Made by a program: the position numbers and the translations under genes
Shown here: positions 21,320 to 29,561 of the stretch, in pieces
How the letters are laid out: every line of letters begins with the position of its first letter
Position numbering within the stretch: the stretch's first letter is position 1
Notes under the pieces: model-generated
Database searches by the model: none
Told to the model about the DNA's origin: nothing
Seen by the model: the letters and a program-made list of their open reading frames with translations, nothing else
DNA from: Sphingomonas sp.
Lineage (GTDB): Bacteria; Pseudomonadota; Alphaproteobacteria; Sphingomonadales; Sphingomonadaceae
Direction of reading: 5' to 3'
Assembly (NCBI RefSeq): GCF_013816785.1
Contig: NZ_JACDDV010000004.1
Location: 1-64,000, forward strand
Length of the DNA: 64,000 bases

Positions 21320-23728
21320 TCAAGATGGGCTGACGAAGCTGTCGAGCACCCGCTTCCGCCCCGCTTTTTCGAACTCGATTTCAAGTTTGTTGCCTTCGAT
21401 CGCGGCGATTACGCCGTAGCCGAATTTGCCGTGGAACACGCGTTGGCCCAGGGTGAGGTCGTCGCGGCCTTTGTTGCCGAGGCTGACAGCAGAGGTGCGG
21501 GCTTCGATGGGGCCCCTCGACGTGCGCGTCTCGACTTCGCTCGACGCCGCTAAGGATGAGCGGAATTTCAGAACACCTCGCTGAAACCCCGGTCCGCGGC
21601 TGGCGCTGCGCATGGCCTGGGCAGGACCGAGATGCGCGAACGGGTCGGCGTGTTCGCTCCATTGGGCTCGCCATAGGGATTCGCCGCCGGACATGGTGGT
21701 TTCGCTGTCGATGTGAGCGTCGGGCAATTCGGCGACGAAGCGGCTGGGGATGCTGCTGGTCCATTGGCCGTAGATGCGGCGGTTGGCGGCATGGAGGATG
21801 GTCGCCCGGGTGCGGGCGCGGGTGATCGCGACGTAGGCCAGGCGGCGCTCCTCCTCGAGGCTAGCGAGGCCGCCTTCGTCGAGCGCCCGCTGCGACGGGA
21901 ATACGCCTTCTTCCCAGCCGGCGAGGAAGACCAGCGGAAATTCGAGCCCCTTGGCGGCGTGGATGGTCATGATGGTGACCTTAGGCTCCCCGCGCGCCGC
22001 GTCATTGTCCATCACCAGGCTGACATGCTCAAGGAAGGCGCCGAGCGTTTCATACTCCTCCATCGCACGGGTCAGCTCGGCGAGGTTTTCGAGGCGGCCG
22101 GCGGCTTCGGCGCTGCGCTCCGCCTGGAGGACAGCGGTGTAGCCCGATTCGTCGAGCAGCAGGCGGGCGAGCTCGGGGTGGGAAAGGGTTGCCGCCATCG
22201 ACCGCCAGCGGGCGATGTCGCCGACGAAACGGCCTAGGCTGCGCCGCGCCTGGGGCGTCAATTCGTCGCTGTCGAGCATCTGCGCGGCGGCGAGCAGCAG
22301 CGGCTGCTGCGTGGCGCGGGCGAACTGGTGGATGCCGGCAACCGCCTTGTCGCCGAGGCCGCGTTTGGGGACGTTGACGATGCGGTCGAAGGCGAGGTCG
22401 TCGGCCGGCTGAGCGACGAGGCGGAGGTAGGCGAGCGCATCTCGGATTTCCGCGCGTTCATAGAAGCGGAAGCCGCCGACGATCTGATAGGCGAGACCGA
22501 TGGCGATGAACCGCTCCTCGAACTCGCGCGTCTGGAATTGGGCGCGGACCAGGATGGCGGTGTCGTCGAGGGTGCCCCCCTCTTGACCGTTAGCGCGGCG
22601 GACATGCGCCTCGATCTCCTCGCCGACGCGGCGCGCTTCCTCGGGCCCGTCCCACACGCCGATGACCTTGACCCGGTCGCCGTCGTTGCGCTCCGTCCAC
22701 AGCGTCTTGCCGAGGCGGCCGGCGTTGTGGGCGATGAGCCCGGTGGCGGCGCCGAGGATGTGCGGGGTCGAGCGGTAGTTCTGCTCGAGCCGGATGATCG
22801 CAGCGCCGGGGAAATCGACCTCGAAGCGCAGGATGTTGGCGACCTCGGCCCCGCGCCAGGAGTAGATCGACTGGTCGTCGTCGCCGACGCAGCAGATGTT
22901 GCGGCGCGGCTCGGCCAGGAGCCGCAGCCACTCGTACTGGCTGGCGTTGGTGTCCTGATATTCGTCGACGAGGATGTAGCGGAAGCGGTCGCGGTAGCTT
23001 TCCAGCACGTCGGCATGGGCCTTGAAGATCGTCAGCATGTGCAGCAGCAGGTCGCCGAAGTCGCACGCGTTGAGGGTTATGAGGCGCTGTTGGTAGGCCG
23101 CATAGAGCTCCTGCCCGCGGCCGTTGGCGAAGGCCTCGCTCTCGCCAGCGTCGATGTGGGCGGGGCTCCAGCCGCGGTTTTTCCACCGGTCGATGACGCT
23201 GGCAAACTGGCGCGCGGGCCAGCGTTTCTCATCGAGGTTGGACGCAACGATCAATTGCTTGAGCAGACGCAGCTGGTCGTCGGTGTCGAGGATGGTGAAA
23301 TTGGACTGCAAGCCGACTAGCTCGGCGTGGGCGCGGAGCATGCGCGCGGCGACGCTGTGAAAGGTGCCGAGCCACGGCATCGATTCGATCGCTCCGCCGG
23401 AGATGCGCGCGATGCGCTCCTTCATCTCGCGCGCGGCCTTGTTGGTGAAGGTGACGGCGAGGATCTGGCTCGGCCACGCCTTGCGCGTCGCAATGAGGTG
23501 GGCCAACCGGGCCGTCAGTGCCGCGGTTTTCCCGGTGCCCGCGCCGGCAAGCATCAGCACCGGCCCTTCGGTCGTCAGCACGGCTTCGCGCTGGGGCGGG
23601 TTCAGCCCCTGGAGGTACGCAGGTTCGGGGGCGAGGGCAGGGAGTTTAGGCACTTGGCCGAGGTAGGGAAGGGACGCGTTCCAGGCAACCGGAGGAAGTA
23701 GGCCGAACGGATGTTGCGCGGCGGACAA
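21320..23728 (-). CDS. uvrD: UvrD/PcrA-family ATP-dependent DNA helicase
   Basis: The 802-residue superfamily-1A helicase unwinds DNA in nucleotide excision and mismatch repair. The Q motif (GLNPPQREAV, 41-50) and Walker A (GAGTGKT, 62-68) are present. So are motif II (DEYQDTN), motif III (GDDDQSIYSWRGA), motif IV (QNYRST) and late motifs (TIHAAKGLEF, VAITRAR). The C-terminus ends in a PcrA-like tudor segment (LTLGQRVFHGKFGYGVI). A leading 40-residue Pro-rich stretch precedes the domain. It is a single gene. Confidence 0.94.
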   Translation of the reverse strand: MSAAQHPFGLLPPVAWNASLPYLGQVPKLPALAPEPAYLQGLNPPQREAVLTTEGPVLMLAGAGTGKTAALTARLAHLIATRKAWPSQILAVTFTNKAAREMKERIARISGGAIESMPWLGTFHSVAARMLRAHAELVGLQSNFTILDTDDQLRLLKQLIVASNLDEKRWPARQFASVIDRWKNRGWSPAHIDAGESEAFANGRGQELYAAYQQRLITLNACDFGDLLLHMLTIFKAHADVLESYRDRFRYILVDEYQDTNASQYEWLRLLAEPRRNICCVGDDDQSIYSWRGAEVANILRFEVDFPGAAIIRLEQNYRSTPHILGAATGLIAHNAGRLGKTLWTERNDGDRVKVIGVWDGPEEARRVGEEIEAHVRRANGQEGGTLDDTAILVRAQFQTREFEERFIAIGLAYQIVGGFRFYERAEIRDALAYLRLVAQPADDLAFDRIVNVPKRGLGDKAVAGIHQFARATQQPLLLAAAQMLDSDELTPQARRSLGRFVGDIARWRSMAATLSHPELARLLLDESGYTAVLQAERSAEAAGRLENLAELTRAMEEYETLGAFLEHVSLVMDNDAARGEPKVTIMTIHAAKGLEFPLVFLAGWEEGVFPSQRALDEGGLASLEEERRLAYVAITRARTRATILHAANRRIYGQWTSSIPSRFVAELPDAHIDSETTMSGGESLWRAQWSEHADPFAHLGPAQAMRSASRGPGFQRGVLKFRSSLAASSEVETRTSRGPIEARTSAVSLGNKGRDDLTLGQRVFHGKFGYGVIAAIEGNKLEIEFEKAGRKRVLDSFVSPS

Positions 23729-24104: not shown

Positions 24105-24833
24105 CTACTTGGCAAGCGTTCCGTCGGACCATTTCCGGACTCCCATATAAAAGACGGTGTCCGACCCTTTGTACCCCGGTAATGCCATCCCGATCGGCGA
24201 TCCGGGAAGACCCGCTGCCCACGCCGAAGCCGGCACGTCCAGGTACACCATGACGTGCGGTCCGGCCGGCCCGATGTCGTCGGCAAGGTAGCCCTGTTTG
24301 GACATCATGATTGCGAACGCTCCGGGTTCCGGGGCAGGCACCCGGAGCGCTTTCGCGTTAGCGAGAATTACCGGTAGCGAACGTTTGGCGAGCACCCATT
24401 TCGTGCGTTCGAGATAGACCGGCAAAACGCTTCGGGAAGCGGCGGAGTTCAAACAGATCGGTACGCGGATTTTCGAATTCCAGAAATCGGGTTTGTCGAG
24501 AGCGTCGTTCCATGATCGCTGCACCATGCACGTCCAACCATTCTTGCCTGCAACGGCGCGATGGTGGCCGCGGGCGTCGAACACCAGAATCTCGGCATCG
24601 TCGGAGATGGACGGCGGAGCGGCTGAGCGCGCCAAGGCGATCTCGGCGGCTTCGCTCGGCGGCAAATAGGCGGCGAGAGGCGCCATCGTTTTGTAGGGAT
24701 TAGGGGATACCGGGCGTGCAGGCGGTGAGTGGTCTTGCTTCTGTGCCAGCGCCGGCGCCGCGGCGAGGATGACCAGTGCGGCGGCGCACCCGCTGCGATA
24801 TCGTGCGCGGCGATGATGGATAGCGGGTTTCAT
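24105..24833 (-). CDS. Secreted hypothetical protein
   Basis: ATG 24833 with GGGGAGAG just upstream gives 242 residues. A signal peptide with Arg-rich head and Ala-rich core (CAAALVILAAAPALA) is followed by a mature protein. Conserved-looking segments include EILVFDARGHHRAV, GWTCMVQRSW and SDTVFYMGVRKWSDG. I recognise no domain. The two cysteines (in TCMVQ and ICLNS) might form a disulphide. Longer upstream readings are arginine/threonine-rich shadow sequence and were not used. Confidence 0.6.
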   Translation of the reverse strand: MKPAIHHRRARYRSGCAAALVILAAAPALAQKQDHSPPARPVSPNPYKTMAPLAAYLPPSEAAEIALARSAAPPSISDDAEILVFDARGHHRAVAGKNGWTCMVQRSWNDALDKPDFWNSKIRVPICLNSAASRSVLPVYLERTKWVLAKRSLPVILANAKALRVPAPEPGAFAIMMSKQGYLADDIGPAGPHVMVYLDVPASAWAAGLPGSPIGMALPGYKGSDTVFYMGVRKWSDGTLAK

Positions 24834-24943
24834 TTCTCTCCCCTGGAACCGCGAACTTCGATCGAAGGATTGCATAGGAACGGTGCGGGCGGTCGTCAAA
24901 GTGCGAGTGACGCCGCGCAGGTCACGGACGCGGTCCTGTGCGG

Positions 24944-24978
24944 CCGGCCAATGCCCGTGCATCCGGCCAATGCCCGTG
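24944..24978. repeat. 16-bp direct repeat, two copies
   Basis: CCGGCCAATGCCCGTG occurs at 24944-24959 and again at 24963-24978, separated by CAT (period 19). It lies just upstream of the PhzF-family gene start. It could be a slippage duplication or a paired operator. Confidence 0.5.
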
Positions 24979-24991
24979 TTAGCGGCGCGCA

Positions 24992-25876
24992 ATGGATGGC
25001 ATGAACCTGCACCTGGTCGATGTGTTCGCGCCGCGGCCGTTAACGGGCAACGGGTTGACGATCGTGCTGAGCGATCGGCCGATCGACGATCGCCTGATGC
25101 AACGATTGACGATTGAATTGCGTCAGTTTGAGACGATCTTCCTGCAGCCGGAAGCGCCGCCGACAACGTGGCGGGCGCGGGTGTTCACGATGGAGGAGGA
25201 GCTGGATTTCGCCGGTCACCCGGTGATCGGCGCGGCGGCACTGCTTCATCATCGTCATTACCCCGCGGAGCCGCGCGCGACACTCAAGCTGACGCTCAAT
25301 CGGCAGCAGGTCATTGCCGACAGCGAACGGATCGAGGGCGGGTATCGAGTGACCATGCATCAGGCCGAGCCGCGCTGGATCACCACGGTTGCGGCCGAGG
25401 ATGAGGCTCCGTTTCTGGACGCCCTCGACTTGTCCGCCGAGAGGCGCGACGCCACGCTACCGATGGAGGTTGTGACCACCGGCCTGCCGTACCTGATCGT
25501 GCCGGTCGACGCGGCGGGGCTGTCGGGCGCGCAGGTCCGCGTTGACGATCTTGAGCAGCGGCTGACGCGGATTGGGGCGAAGTTTGCTTACCTGGTCGAC
25601 GCGCGCGGGCGCGAAGGGCGGACGTGGGACAACCTCGGCCGGGTCGAGGATGTCGCGACCGGTTCGGCGGCCGGACCGGTCGCGGCGTTCCTCGTCCGCC
25701 ATGGCCGCGCCGCCTTGGGCGAGGAGTTCATGCTGAGCCAGGGGCGATTGGCCGGGCGCCCGAGCGAAATCGTAGTGCGAGTCGGCGGCAGTTCCGGAGC
25801 GATGACTGGCATCGCGGTGACAGGGGAAGTACGATTGATTGCGAGCGGGCGTTTCGACCCGTCGATCCTGCGCTAA
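24992..25876 (+). CDS. PhzF-family epimerase/isomerase
   Basis: The 294-residue protein has the PhzF/diaminopimelate-epimerase-like fold. The catalytic Glu47 lies in QFETIFL, and ELDFAGHPVIGAA is the family's central motif. DVATGSAAGPVAAFL matches the second-domain glycine loop. PhzF proteins isomerise aromatic or related substrates; no phenazine genes are present, so the substrate is unknown. The start may be Met1 or Met4 (MNLHLVDVF). The upstream leader carries a 16-bp direct repeat. Confidence 0.85.
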   Translation: MDGMNLHLVDVFAPRPLTGNGLTIVLSDRPIDDRLMQRLTIELRQFETIFLQPEAPPTTWRARVFTMEEELDFAGHPVIGAAALLHHRHYPAEPRATLKLTLNRQQVIADSERIEGGYRVTMHQAEPRWITTVAAEDEAPFLDALDLSAERRDATLPMEVVTTGLPYLIVPVDAAGLSGAQVRVDDLEQRLTRIGAKFAYLVDARGREGRTWDNLGRVEDVATGSAAGPVAAFLVRHGRAALGEEFMLSQGRLAGRPSEIVVRVGGSSGAMTGIAVTGEVRLIASGRFDPSILR

Positions 25877-25911
25877 AGGCGGGGACAGCGGGTTTATCCG
25901 CGATATCCCCG

Positions 25912-25920
25912 TTATCCACA
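25912..25920 (+). promoter_or_regulatory. Single perfect DnaA-box match
   Basis: TTATCCACA matches the DnaA consensus exactly, with a related TTTATCCGC about 20 bases upstream. One box in 64 kb could be chance. It lies between phzF and the ncRNA promoter. Confidence 0.25.
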
Positions 25921-25943
25921 GGCATGGCGCTGCAGATTCCGCT

Positions 25944-25971
25944 TTGCGCGACTCGGAGAGAGGGTCATAAA
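25944..25971 (+). promoter_or_regulatory. Putative sigma-70 promoter of the ncRNA
   Basis: TTGCGC (25944-25949) and CATAAA (25966-25971) are spaced by 16 bases, resembling -35 and -10 elements. Initiation would fall near 25978, just before the first hairpin of the structured region. Confidence 0.45.
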
Positions 25972-25977
25972 GGGAGG

Positions 25978-26348
25978 GTGATCGGGACGGAAGTCCCAGC
26001 CTCCCTCGGGAGGAAGGGGCGGAAAGTCCGATCTCCACCGGCAGGCGATGAGGAGGAACTTCGGTTCCAAGTCGGACCAGTCGGAAGAGGCGCCGGAAGA
26101 GCCATTCTTTCCTGCGCGAAACGCGGCACTCTTCGGAGGGCAGGCGACGCGAAGGAGGATGGTCCAAGAAGGGCCGCAGAAGGTCGAGAACGTGCCTTCG
26201 GGCACGACCACGATTGGAAGCGACGCCTGAGCTGGTGAGCCAGGATCGAGGAGCGGAAGACCTTCGGGTCGTCAAGCTAGCGAACACCGGCAGATCCTTC
26301 GCTCGGCGCAGATGGGGGCTGGCAGCAATGCCGGCCCCCATTTCTGTT
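25978..26348 (+). ncRNA. Candidate structured non-coding RNA of about 370 nt
   Basis: No convincing protein is encoded between 25877 and 26429, but the plus strand folds into a series of hairpins. They are GGGAC-GGAA-GTCCC (25984-25997), CCTCC-CTCG-GGAGG (26000-26013), GGAAC-TTCG-GTTCC (26055-26068), CGTGCC-TTCG-GGCACG (26191-26206), CTGG-TGAG-CCAG (26232-26243) and GACC-TTCG-GGTC (26259-26270). A longer-range pair, GTCCGA (26026-26031) with TCGGAC (26072-26077), encloses the third hairpin. UUCG loops on this strand, a promoter-like start and a terminator indicate a dedicated transcript. No known RNA family is assigned. Confidence 0.6.
26313..26348 (+). terminator. GCAA-capped intrinsic terminator of the ncRNA
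   Basis: A 12-pair stem (26313-26324 with 26329-26340, including one U-G pair) is closed by a GCAA tetraloop and followed by TTTCTGTT. It is one of the strongest terminators in the window. Confidence 0.8.
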
Positions 26349-26429: not shown

Positions 26430-27086
26430 TTAGCCTTCTCGCCCATTGCTCAGCGTTTCGAGGCCGCGCCGGCTGGATCCTTCGAGACCGAATCCCCTTG
26501 CCGCAGCAATCGCCACCCACACCGCCAACATTCCCAACGCCCAGCCGCCGACCACATCGCTCGGCCAGTGGACGCCGAGAAAGGGGCGGCTGAGCCCGAT
26601 CAGCAGCGCCATGACGAGAGCCAGCGTAACCGCGAGCCGCCGGTGCCGGCCGTCGACCGCAATCAGCGCGACTAGCAGGAACACTGCCATGCTGTTGGCG
26701 GCGTGACCGCTCGGGAAGCTCGAGCTGGACACCGTCACCGGGTGGAGATCGAAAGCCGGGCGGCTGCGGTCGAACAGCAGTTTGAGGCCGTCCGCCGCCA
26801 GCCGTTCCGATGCGACGGCCGCGGCCAGAAATGCGGCCTTTCGGCGATGGCCTTGGCGCCAGAGCCACAGGGCCGCCACCGCCGCAAGCCCGAGCGTCGC
26901 ATAGGCGCTGCCGAGTTGCGTGAACGCGACTGCCGCGCTCGACAGCGGCGGCCAGGTGCCGCGCACGAAGGCAAGGGTGCGGACAGCCTCGTCATCATAG
27001 AGGTTGGCCGGTCCGCCGACCCATCCCGCGGTCACGAAGACGAAGATCAGGACGATCGCGATCCGGGGAGACGAAAATCTTGCCAT
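26430..27086 (-). CDS. PAP2-family membrane phosphatase
   Basis: The 218-residue protein has about six membrane segments. The three-part phosphatase signature is present: KLLFDRSRP, then SFPSGH, then SRPFLGVHWPSDVVGG. Members dephosphorylate lipid substrates such as phosphatidic acid or undecaprenyl pyrophosphate on the periplasmic face. The substrate cannot be told from sequence. It is a single gene, convergent with the ncRNA and divergent from a PilZ gene. Confidence 0.88.
   Translation of the reverse strand: MARFSSPRIAIVLIFVFVTAGWVGGPANLYDDEAVRTLAFVRGTWPPLSSAAVAFTQLGSAYATLGLAAVAALWLWRQGHRRKAAFLAAAVASERLAADGLKLLFDRSRPAFDLHPVTVSSSSFPSGHAANSMAVFLLVALIAVDGRHRRLAVTLALVMALLIGLSRPFLGVHWPSDVVGGWALGMLAVWVAIAAARGFGLEGSSRRGLETLSNGREG

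Positions 27087-29482: not shown

Positions 29483-29561
<79 letters not shown>

Follow-up and report, generated by a model that had tools for sequence, protein, structure and literature searches.

A probable large RNA gene widespread in the Sphingomonadaceae and the predicted fold of the RNA

The RNA locus and its coding potential

The window analyzed in this study is a stretch of 64,000 nucleotides from Sphingomonas sp. (contig NZ_JACDDV010000004.1). Within it, 553 bp separate a phzF-family gene on the plus strand (24992..25876) from a PAP2-type gene on the minus strand (26430-27086), and no credible gene was found in between, which confirms the original prediction that this region is gene-free. 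A structured RNA of about 370 nt is predicted here on the plus strand (25977..26347, both ends putative), based on its homologues in the genus (62 of 71 genomes) and on compensatory changes. The transcript would begin within a few bases of GGUGAUCGGG and finish in a terminator. Ahead of it, on the same strand, sequence conservation marks a 20-base upstream element, GATATCCCCGTTATCCACAG (25902..25921), with a DnaA-type box, TTATCCACA, at 25912-25920. The region likely encodes a large RNA for which a fold is predicted; its gene is present once per genome and widespread in the Sphingomonadaceae.

Measured from the 5' motif GTGATCGGG to the last conserved motif ahead of the terminator, the RNA body is 331-695 nt long (mean 491 nt in 57 copies), with conserved blocks that are colinear across copies and variable arms between them. 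Any given frame is open throughout in no more than 16 of 57 copies (a number reached by reverse frames), and 221 of 1394 alignment gaps are divisible by three, where gaps common to relatives are not independent. Because no frame is open in all copies and the gap lengths are so distributed, a protein-coding reading was rejected, in agreement with the earlier view that no frame looked like a protein.

Distribution in the genus

The 62 genomes of the genus that carry the RNA consist of 59 found by the upstream element (at most two mismatches, single in most of them) and three (G004, G008 and G022) found by blastn. Among the genus genomes of good quality, the element is present in 49 of 53 and the RNA in 52 of 53; the sole one without the RNA, G012, is a 290-contig assembly. 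By blastn, 32 of 37 genus genomes contained the RNA sequence, as against none of 24 genomes from other genera of the order, and no plasmid relatives were revealed. The exact conserved internal pattern was found on 30 named contigs, assigned to Sphingomonas (26), Sphingomicrobium (two), Sphingomonadales (one) and Alphaproteobacteria (one). Carriers with a complete genome include Sphingomonas rhizophila KACC 19189 and S. sediminicola KACC 15039. The RNA appears to be near-universal within its genus, widespread across the family and served by a replication-type promoter; that it forms a real RNA family is the strongest statement of this study. Judged from sequence, the existence of this family is highly probable.

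Two contigs that are filed as viral in IMG/VR (L118 and L119) carry the RNA pattern. L119 looks like a misfiled chromosome because the RNA shares the contig with a helicase gene, as it does on chromosomes; on L118, the helicase gene was not matched. A phage origin of the RNA is considered unlikely.

Predicted fold and covariation

Two alignments of genus copies were used. A2 contains all 61 copies that remain from the 62 genus loci after L020, which has no anchor, was dropped; A1 contains 56 of the 61, with L032 and L047 omitted by choice and L054, L058 and L070 lacking an anchor. In the A2 structure, 106 cells changed on both sides compared with 29.5 in shuffles, a control inflated by the kinship of the copies, and 97.8% of cells are paired compared with at most 58.6% in slid registers, a control that favours the structures, as they were obtained with RNAalifold from the same alignments and extended by eye. 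For the 3' domain and terminator in A1, the corresponding values are 39 two-sided cells against 5.1, and 98.6% paired cells against at most 43.0%. In both alignments, the number of cells with two-sided changes exceeds that in all 500 shuffles and in every slid register. The covariance check in relatives that had been proposed earlier thus revealed compensatory changes in 56 to 61 aligned copies.

All features of the fold lie on the plus strand. The 5' domain is closed by helix P1 (25978-25985 with 26028-26035, one mismatch), which is invariant and paired in all 61 rows. The long-range six-base helix noticed earlier, GAUCGG/CCGAUC, is present at 25980-25985 with 26028-26033, and the GGAA-capped hairpin GGGACGGAAGUCCC (25984-25997) has two G in common with P1. 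Further downstream, a helix that is 99.3% paired (26038-26042/26080-26084), with two-sided changes at one pair and one-sided changes at two, surrounds a UUCG hairpin (26055-26068). The central domain (26089..26175) comprises a lower helix (26089-26094/26171-26175), a purine-rich internal loop and an upper helix (26099-26106/26158-26165). The lower helix is invariant; both it and P1 are without covariation support because neither ever varies. Two-sided changes occur at six of seven pairs of the upper helix (e.g., AU 19, UA 19 and CG 18 at one pair). In the internal loop, GGAA (26095-26098) is invariant and the facing AAGAA (26166-26170) nearly so. Another UUCG hairpin (26192-26205) is located in a stretch that is up to about 280 nt longer in other species. 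The helices of the 3' domain (26224-26232/26301-26308 and 26239-26244/26287-26291), which encloses a UUCG hairpin at 26259-26270, are 97.3% and 98.2% paired and have two-sided changes at four pairs. The last feature (26313..26347) is an intrinsic-terminator-like hairpin with a GCAA loop (26313-26340) and a T-rich tail, 99.6% paired and with two-sided changes at four pairs. The three perfect UUCG hairpins, the GGAA hairpin and the GCAA-capped terminator stem all occur at the places named in the original prediction. Compensatory change preserves the predicted terminator stem as well as predicted helices in the central and 3' domains.

A total of 128 UUCG-capped hairpins with stems of at least four pairs were counted, spread over 53 of 57 genus copies, compared with a mean of 3.1 in 100 dinucleotide-preserving shuffles; motif counts cover 57 genus bodies and 20 bodies of other genera, for which the ends were placed by eye. 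The folding energy of the 405-nt stretch has a z-score of -3.96, and a value of about -2 or lower was reached by 6 of the 12 genus copies tested and by 3 of the 8 taken from other genera; folding energy alone is a weak guide to the structure of this RNA. That it is unremarkable in about half of the copies, and that up to 16 of 57 copies keep a reverse frame open from end to end, would fit a chance assembly of hairpins or the remnant of a protein gene. This explanation is already contradicted by the compensatory changes, and given such helix-preserving changes, the excess of UUCG hairpins and the presence of the RNA in nearly all good-quality genus genomes (52 of 53), we regard it as exceedingly improbable.

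Comparison with known RNA families

When the whole window was compared with Rfam 15 (4227 families), nothing but a tRNA reached the gathering score, namely tRNA-Lys (TTT) on the minus strand at 29483-29558, with the Rfam match at 29486-29558. The RNA region itself produced chance-level matches alone, with E values of 1.6 or worse. RNase P RNA class A (RF00010) resembles the RNA in length, and the original prediction had noted a likeness to its conserved region I. The window copy does carry GGAAAGUCCG, but the likeness proved to be accidental, as relatives keep AAG..CCGAUCUCC alone, as the 3' strand of P1. Moreover, the RNase P model scores 9.2 and 7.8 bits here (E values of 1.9 and 5.8) against a gathering score of 100, whereas the RNase P RNA of the same genome lies on another contig (C69) with 293.7 bits. 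Neither the alphaproteobacterial Rfam model (RF01849) nor ARAGORN detected a tmRNA in the window, and the tmRNA of this genome is also on another contig (C94, 212.8 bits). Both identities were rejected, since neither model matches here at its gathering score and both genes are found elsewhere in the genome.

No published description of the RNA was found in the open-licence full texts covered; this check took in the main texts of PMC8632094 and PMC11109978 (sphingomonad names, DnaA) and of PMC7566282 (noncoding RNA). The suggestion of an undescribed sphingomonad RNA is supported, as the Rfam search gave no match above chance and relatives show compensatory changes. Set apart by Rfam and by the descriptions compared, the RNA would constitute a new large structured RNA family whose promoter logic and spread through one family are unusual. 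To our knowledge, it is uncommon for a large bacterial RNA to occur throughout a family, or for its promoter anatomy to link it to control by DnaA and GANTC. The OLE, ROOL and GOLLD RNAs (PMC12286853) and the smtA motif (PMC11109978) are likewise long and structured, with a narrow distribution and an open function, but the available text of these two papers mentions no promoter with a DnaA box or GANTC for them; the smtA motif was compared by its description, without a model.

A DnaA-type box and GANTC in front of the RNA

The distance from the start of the upstream element's core to GTGATCGGG is 75-77 bases in all 61 copies. The box TTATCCACA is exact in 54 of the 61, and the form TTWTNCACA occurs in 58, so that it is missing in three. 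Between the element and the RNA lies a promoter-like stretch on the plus strand (25944..25971) with TTGCGC (25944-25949), GACTC, an instance of GANTC (25950-25954), and CATAAA (25966-25971), for which the -35/-10 assignment is putative. A GANTC site within -45 to -10 of the 5' motif was found in 53 of 61 copies (eight are without it), compared with 24 of 783 control windows taken inside and behind the RNA, and in 46 copies it is situated at -28 or -29 from GTGATCGGG. A simple scan for E. coli-type sigma-70 promoters and a terminator scan found neither at the RNA. The promoter that the original prediction called plausible is not E. coli-like, and its elements stand at near-fixed spacing; the box at 25912-25920, the meaning of GACTC at 25950-25954 and the spread of the RNA through the family had all been missed.

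According to the available text of PMC4287350, the Caulobacter start sites that have GANTC between -35 and -10 belong to a single timed cluster; GANTC is placed there at -28/-29 in ctrA P1, and at -24 in podJ P2 together with a DnaA site at -82. The upstream region of the RNA is similar to these cell-cycle promoters in the layout of GANTC and DnaA site, as far as that text describes them. The two features expected of the DnaA/GcrA-CcrM promoter type, an upstream box for DnaA and a GANTC site within the core promoter, were both found under the putative -35/-10 assignment. A GcrA-family protein is encoded in this genome according to a family-model search, whose model is imperfectly specific, since the control search rang in Sulfolobus. 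DnaA at the box would activate transcription of the RNA, as would GcrA via CcrM methylation of GANTC. Provided that the RNA family exists, its control by DnaA and/or GcrA-CcrM is quite probable. The RNA is likely transcribed in step with chromosome replication because a DnaA-type box, usually with GANTC, lies in front of it.

Additional copies of the element, one or two per genome, occur in five genomes, with no RNA motif set behind them. Perfect extra copies without RNA motifs were seen at L067 (G017:C1:2490255-2491524) and L068 (G021:C1:1990991-1992260).

Occurrence in the wider family

The 3' domain was turned into a covariance model, R1, which was run over 246 genomes of the order with a threshold of E 0.001. 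It matched 137 genomes, all of which belong to the window's own family and 20 to its genus; at least 20 family members are among the non-matches listed, which speaks against universal presence in the family, and 89 further non-matching genomes lie beyond that listing. From the 117 matched genomes outside the genus, 20 were checked (13 genera, from the upper part of the list and chosen for breadth of genera), followed by two more, and the remaining 95 may include plain terminators. The strict DnaA box, which is the consensus, was present in 16 of the 20 matches in other genera but in only 2 of 391 control windows. The corresponding numbers for a relaxed box, a pattern written after some of those sequences had been seen, are 20 of 20 and 39 of 391, and a box followed by GANTC was found in 16 of 20 and 6 of 391. 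The family members G097 and G098 have relaxed boxes only, with the same terminator.

In these other genera, the distance from box to terminator is about 300-750 nt, and the body between them is T-poor and G+A-rich, with little sequence similarity between genera, while the terminator is similar to that of the genus. A total of 19 UUCG hairpins occur in 13 of the 20 bodies, compared with 0.6 in shuffles. An alignment of six copies from other genera was too divergent for covariation. Outside the genus, the identity of the RNA rests on box, composition, length and terminator because the body is barely alignable.

In a search of the class, 6 of 385 genomes matched at E 1e-5, three of them outside the family. 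None of these three matches has a box, even by the relaxed pattern. As they also stand behind apparent ends of open frames and look like ordinary terminators, a spread beyond the family was rejected.

At seven loci from several genera (L181, L182, L164, L165, L173, L175 and L176), the upstream boxes form an inverted pair (TTATCCAnn ... nnTGGATAA), 34-36 bases apart, or about three helical turns.

Neighboring genes and chromosomal place

The window contains a UvrD/PcrA-like helicase gene on the minus strand (21320..23728), for which the best NCBIfam model is PcrA, with 768 bits, under the curated cut-off of 911. A uvrD/pcrA-like gene upstream of the RNA on the opposite strand is its usual divergent neighbor, being found in 27 of 30 genus loci with 1.5-kb flanks. 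Among larger loci, the helicase gene lies beside the RNA in 15 of 16; the sixteenth is L077, but L013, a smaller locus of the same genome, has it. The phzF-PAP2 context given in the original prediction is accordingly true of this window but atypical of the genus. In this genome, the helicase gene and the RNA have the phzF-family gene between them, and a related phzF gene was found among the 30 loci in L010 only (52% identical). Together with a minus-strand frame at 24105-25166 that has no NCBIfam match, phzF separates the uvrD/pcrA-like gene from the RNA in this window.

In other genera, the neighbors of the RNA differ. At five of 17 such loci (L165, L166, L168, L173 and L176), the upstream gene belongs to a single cluster. 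Its end is about 95-170 bases from the box at four of these loci and about 670 bases from it at the fifth, and the two genes that were checked are argininosuccinate synthase. The RNA likely acts in trans rather than in cis because it has its own terminator-like hairpin and its neighbors differ between genera, and cis-regulation was rejected on these two grounds.

With parS as a proxy for the origin, the RNA is 559-1348 kb away, at 0.22-0.43 of the contig, and points away from parS in 27 of 29 genomes (those with both on one contig, treated as circular). A location at the origin was rejected, since the parS positions place the gene away from the presumed origin. This similar place, together with a DnaA-type box in fixed context, might suggest a chromosomal DnaA-binding locus for titration or reactivation, similar to datA or DARS, with the RNA being secondary. 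The places examined have one or two boxes, the compensatory changes indicate that the RNA itself has a function, and the RNA keeps a similar place relative to parS because it is linked to the helicase gene; such a locus is therefore very unlikely as an explanation.

Possible mode of action

The RNA would be a trans-acting scaffold for a protein partner. Its nearly invariant internal loop, with GGAA facing AAGAA, would bind the protein, which is the least certain step, and the variable arms and UUCG hairpins would stabilize the RNA. Given the RNA family and its control by DnaA/GcrA-CcrM, a protein scaffold is somewhat favored as the main mode; the protein partner is a guess. The mechanism as a whole, in which a replication-timed, trans-acting scaffold RNA binds protein, falls a little short of an even chance.

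Repeated motifs would also suit a sponge for a GGA-binding protein, with many repeated sites rather than one structured site. CsrA is a known binder of GGA-rich RNAs, and sponges of the CsrB/RsmZ type are similar in length to the sphingomonad RNA, with many GGA motifs and their own terminator. GGA, GGAA and CCGGA are indeed above dinucleotide shuffles, with z-scores of 8.1, 13.4 and 13.0 in the 57 genus copies and of 6.0, 4.5 and 8.6 in the 20 copies of other genera, but this excess may just reflect tetraloops and G+A-rich junctions. Unlike for the CsrB/RsmZ-type sponges, CsrA (PF02599) was found in none of the 31 genomes searched, and the control search gave hits in 3 of 14 named genomes. A CsrA sponge was rejected, the repeated GGA motifs being present but CsrA having no match in any of the 31 genomes, and a GGA sponge in general is unlikely.

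A trans-acting RNA that controls cell-cycle mRNAs (dnaA, gcrA or ctrA) by base pairing, like EcpR1 and CcnA, would also suit the replication-type promoter elements. Both are alphaproteobacterial RNAs tied to the cell cycle. According to the available text of PMC4414408, EcpR1 of Sinorhizobium meliloti represses gcrA and dnaA mRNAs, and it differs from the sphingomonad RNA in having two stem-loop domains, a distribution in Rhizobiales families and regulation by the stringent response. CcnA of Caulobacter crescentus, a noncoding RNA with cell-cycle promoter logic, acts on the ctrA and gcrA leaders, lies in the replication origin and is presumably activated by CtrA, as far as PMC8959179 is available, whereas the sphingomonad RNA is 0.56-1.35 Mb from parS, has a DnaA-type box and is multi-domain. 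Most of the invariant bases of the sphingomonad RNA are in helices or in the G+A-rich internal loop and not in an exposed seed, and the body differs strongly between genera while box and terminator persist. A base-pairing role thus appears rather unlikely, somewhat less so than a sponge.

A broader picture extends the protein scaffold: a large RNA of a new class, part of the core gene set in much of the Sphingomonadaceae, would be fired by DnaA and methylation-gated GcrA at fork passage and would build a ribonucleoprotein that feeds back on replication or division, making the RNA a cell-cycle component. We consider this picture tentative and, in its entirety, doubtful. If the timing is right, the RNA is a replication-linked component that has been missed by protein-based annotation in a much-sequenced family. 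Three loci (L032, L036 and L070) belong to a sub-lineage within the genus in which the central motif is altered (ACGGCACCGGAAG) and the 3' end has diverged, and these may show which parts of the RNA can change.
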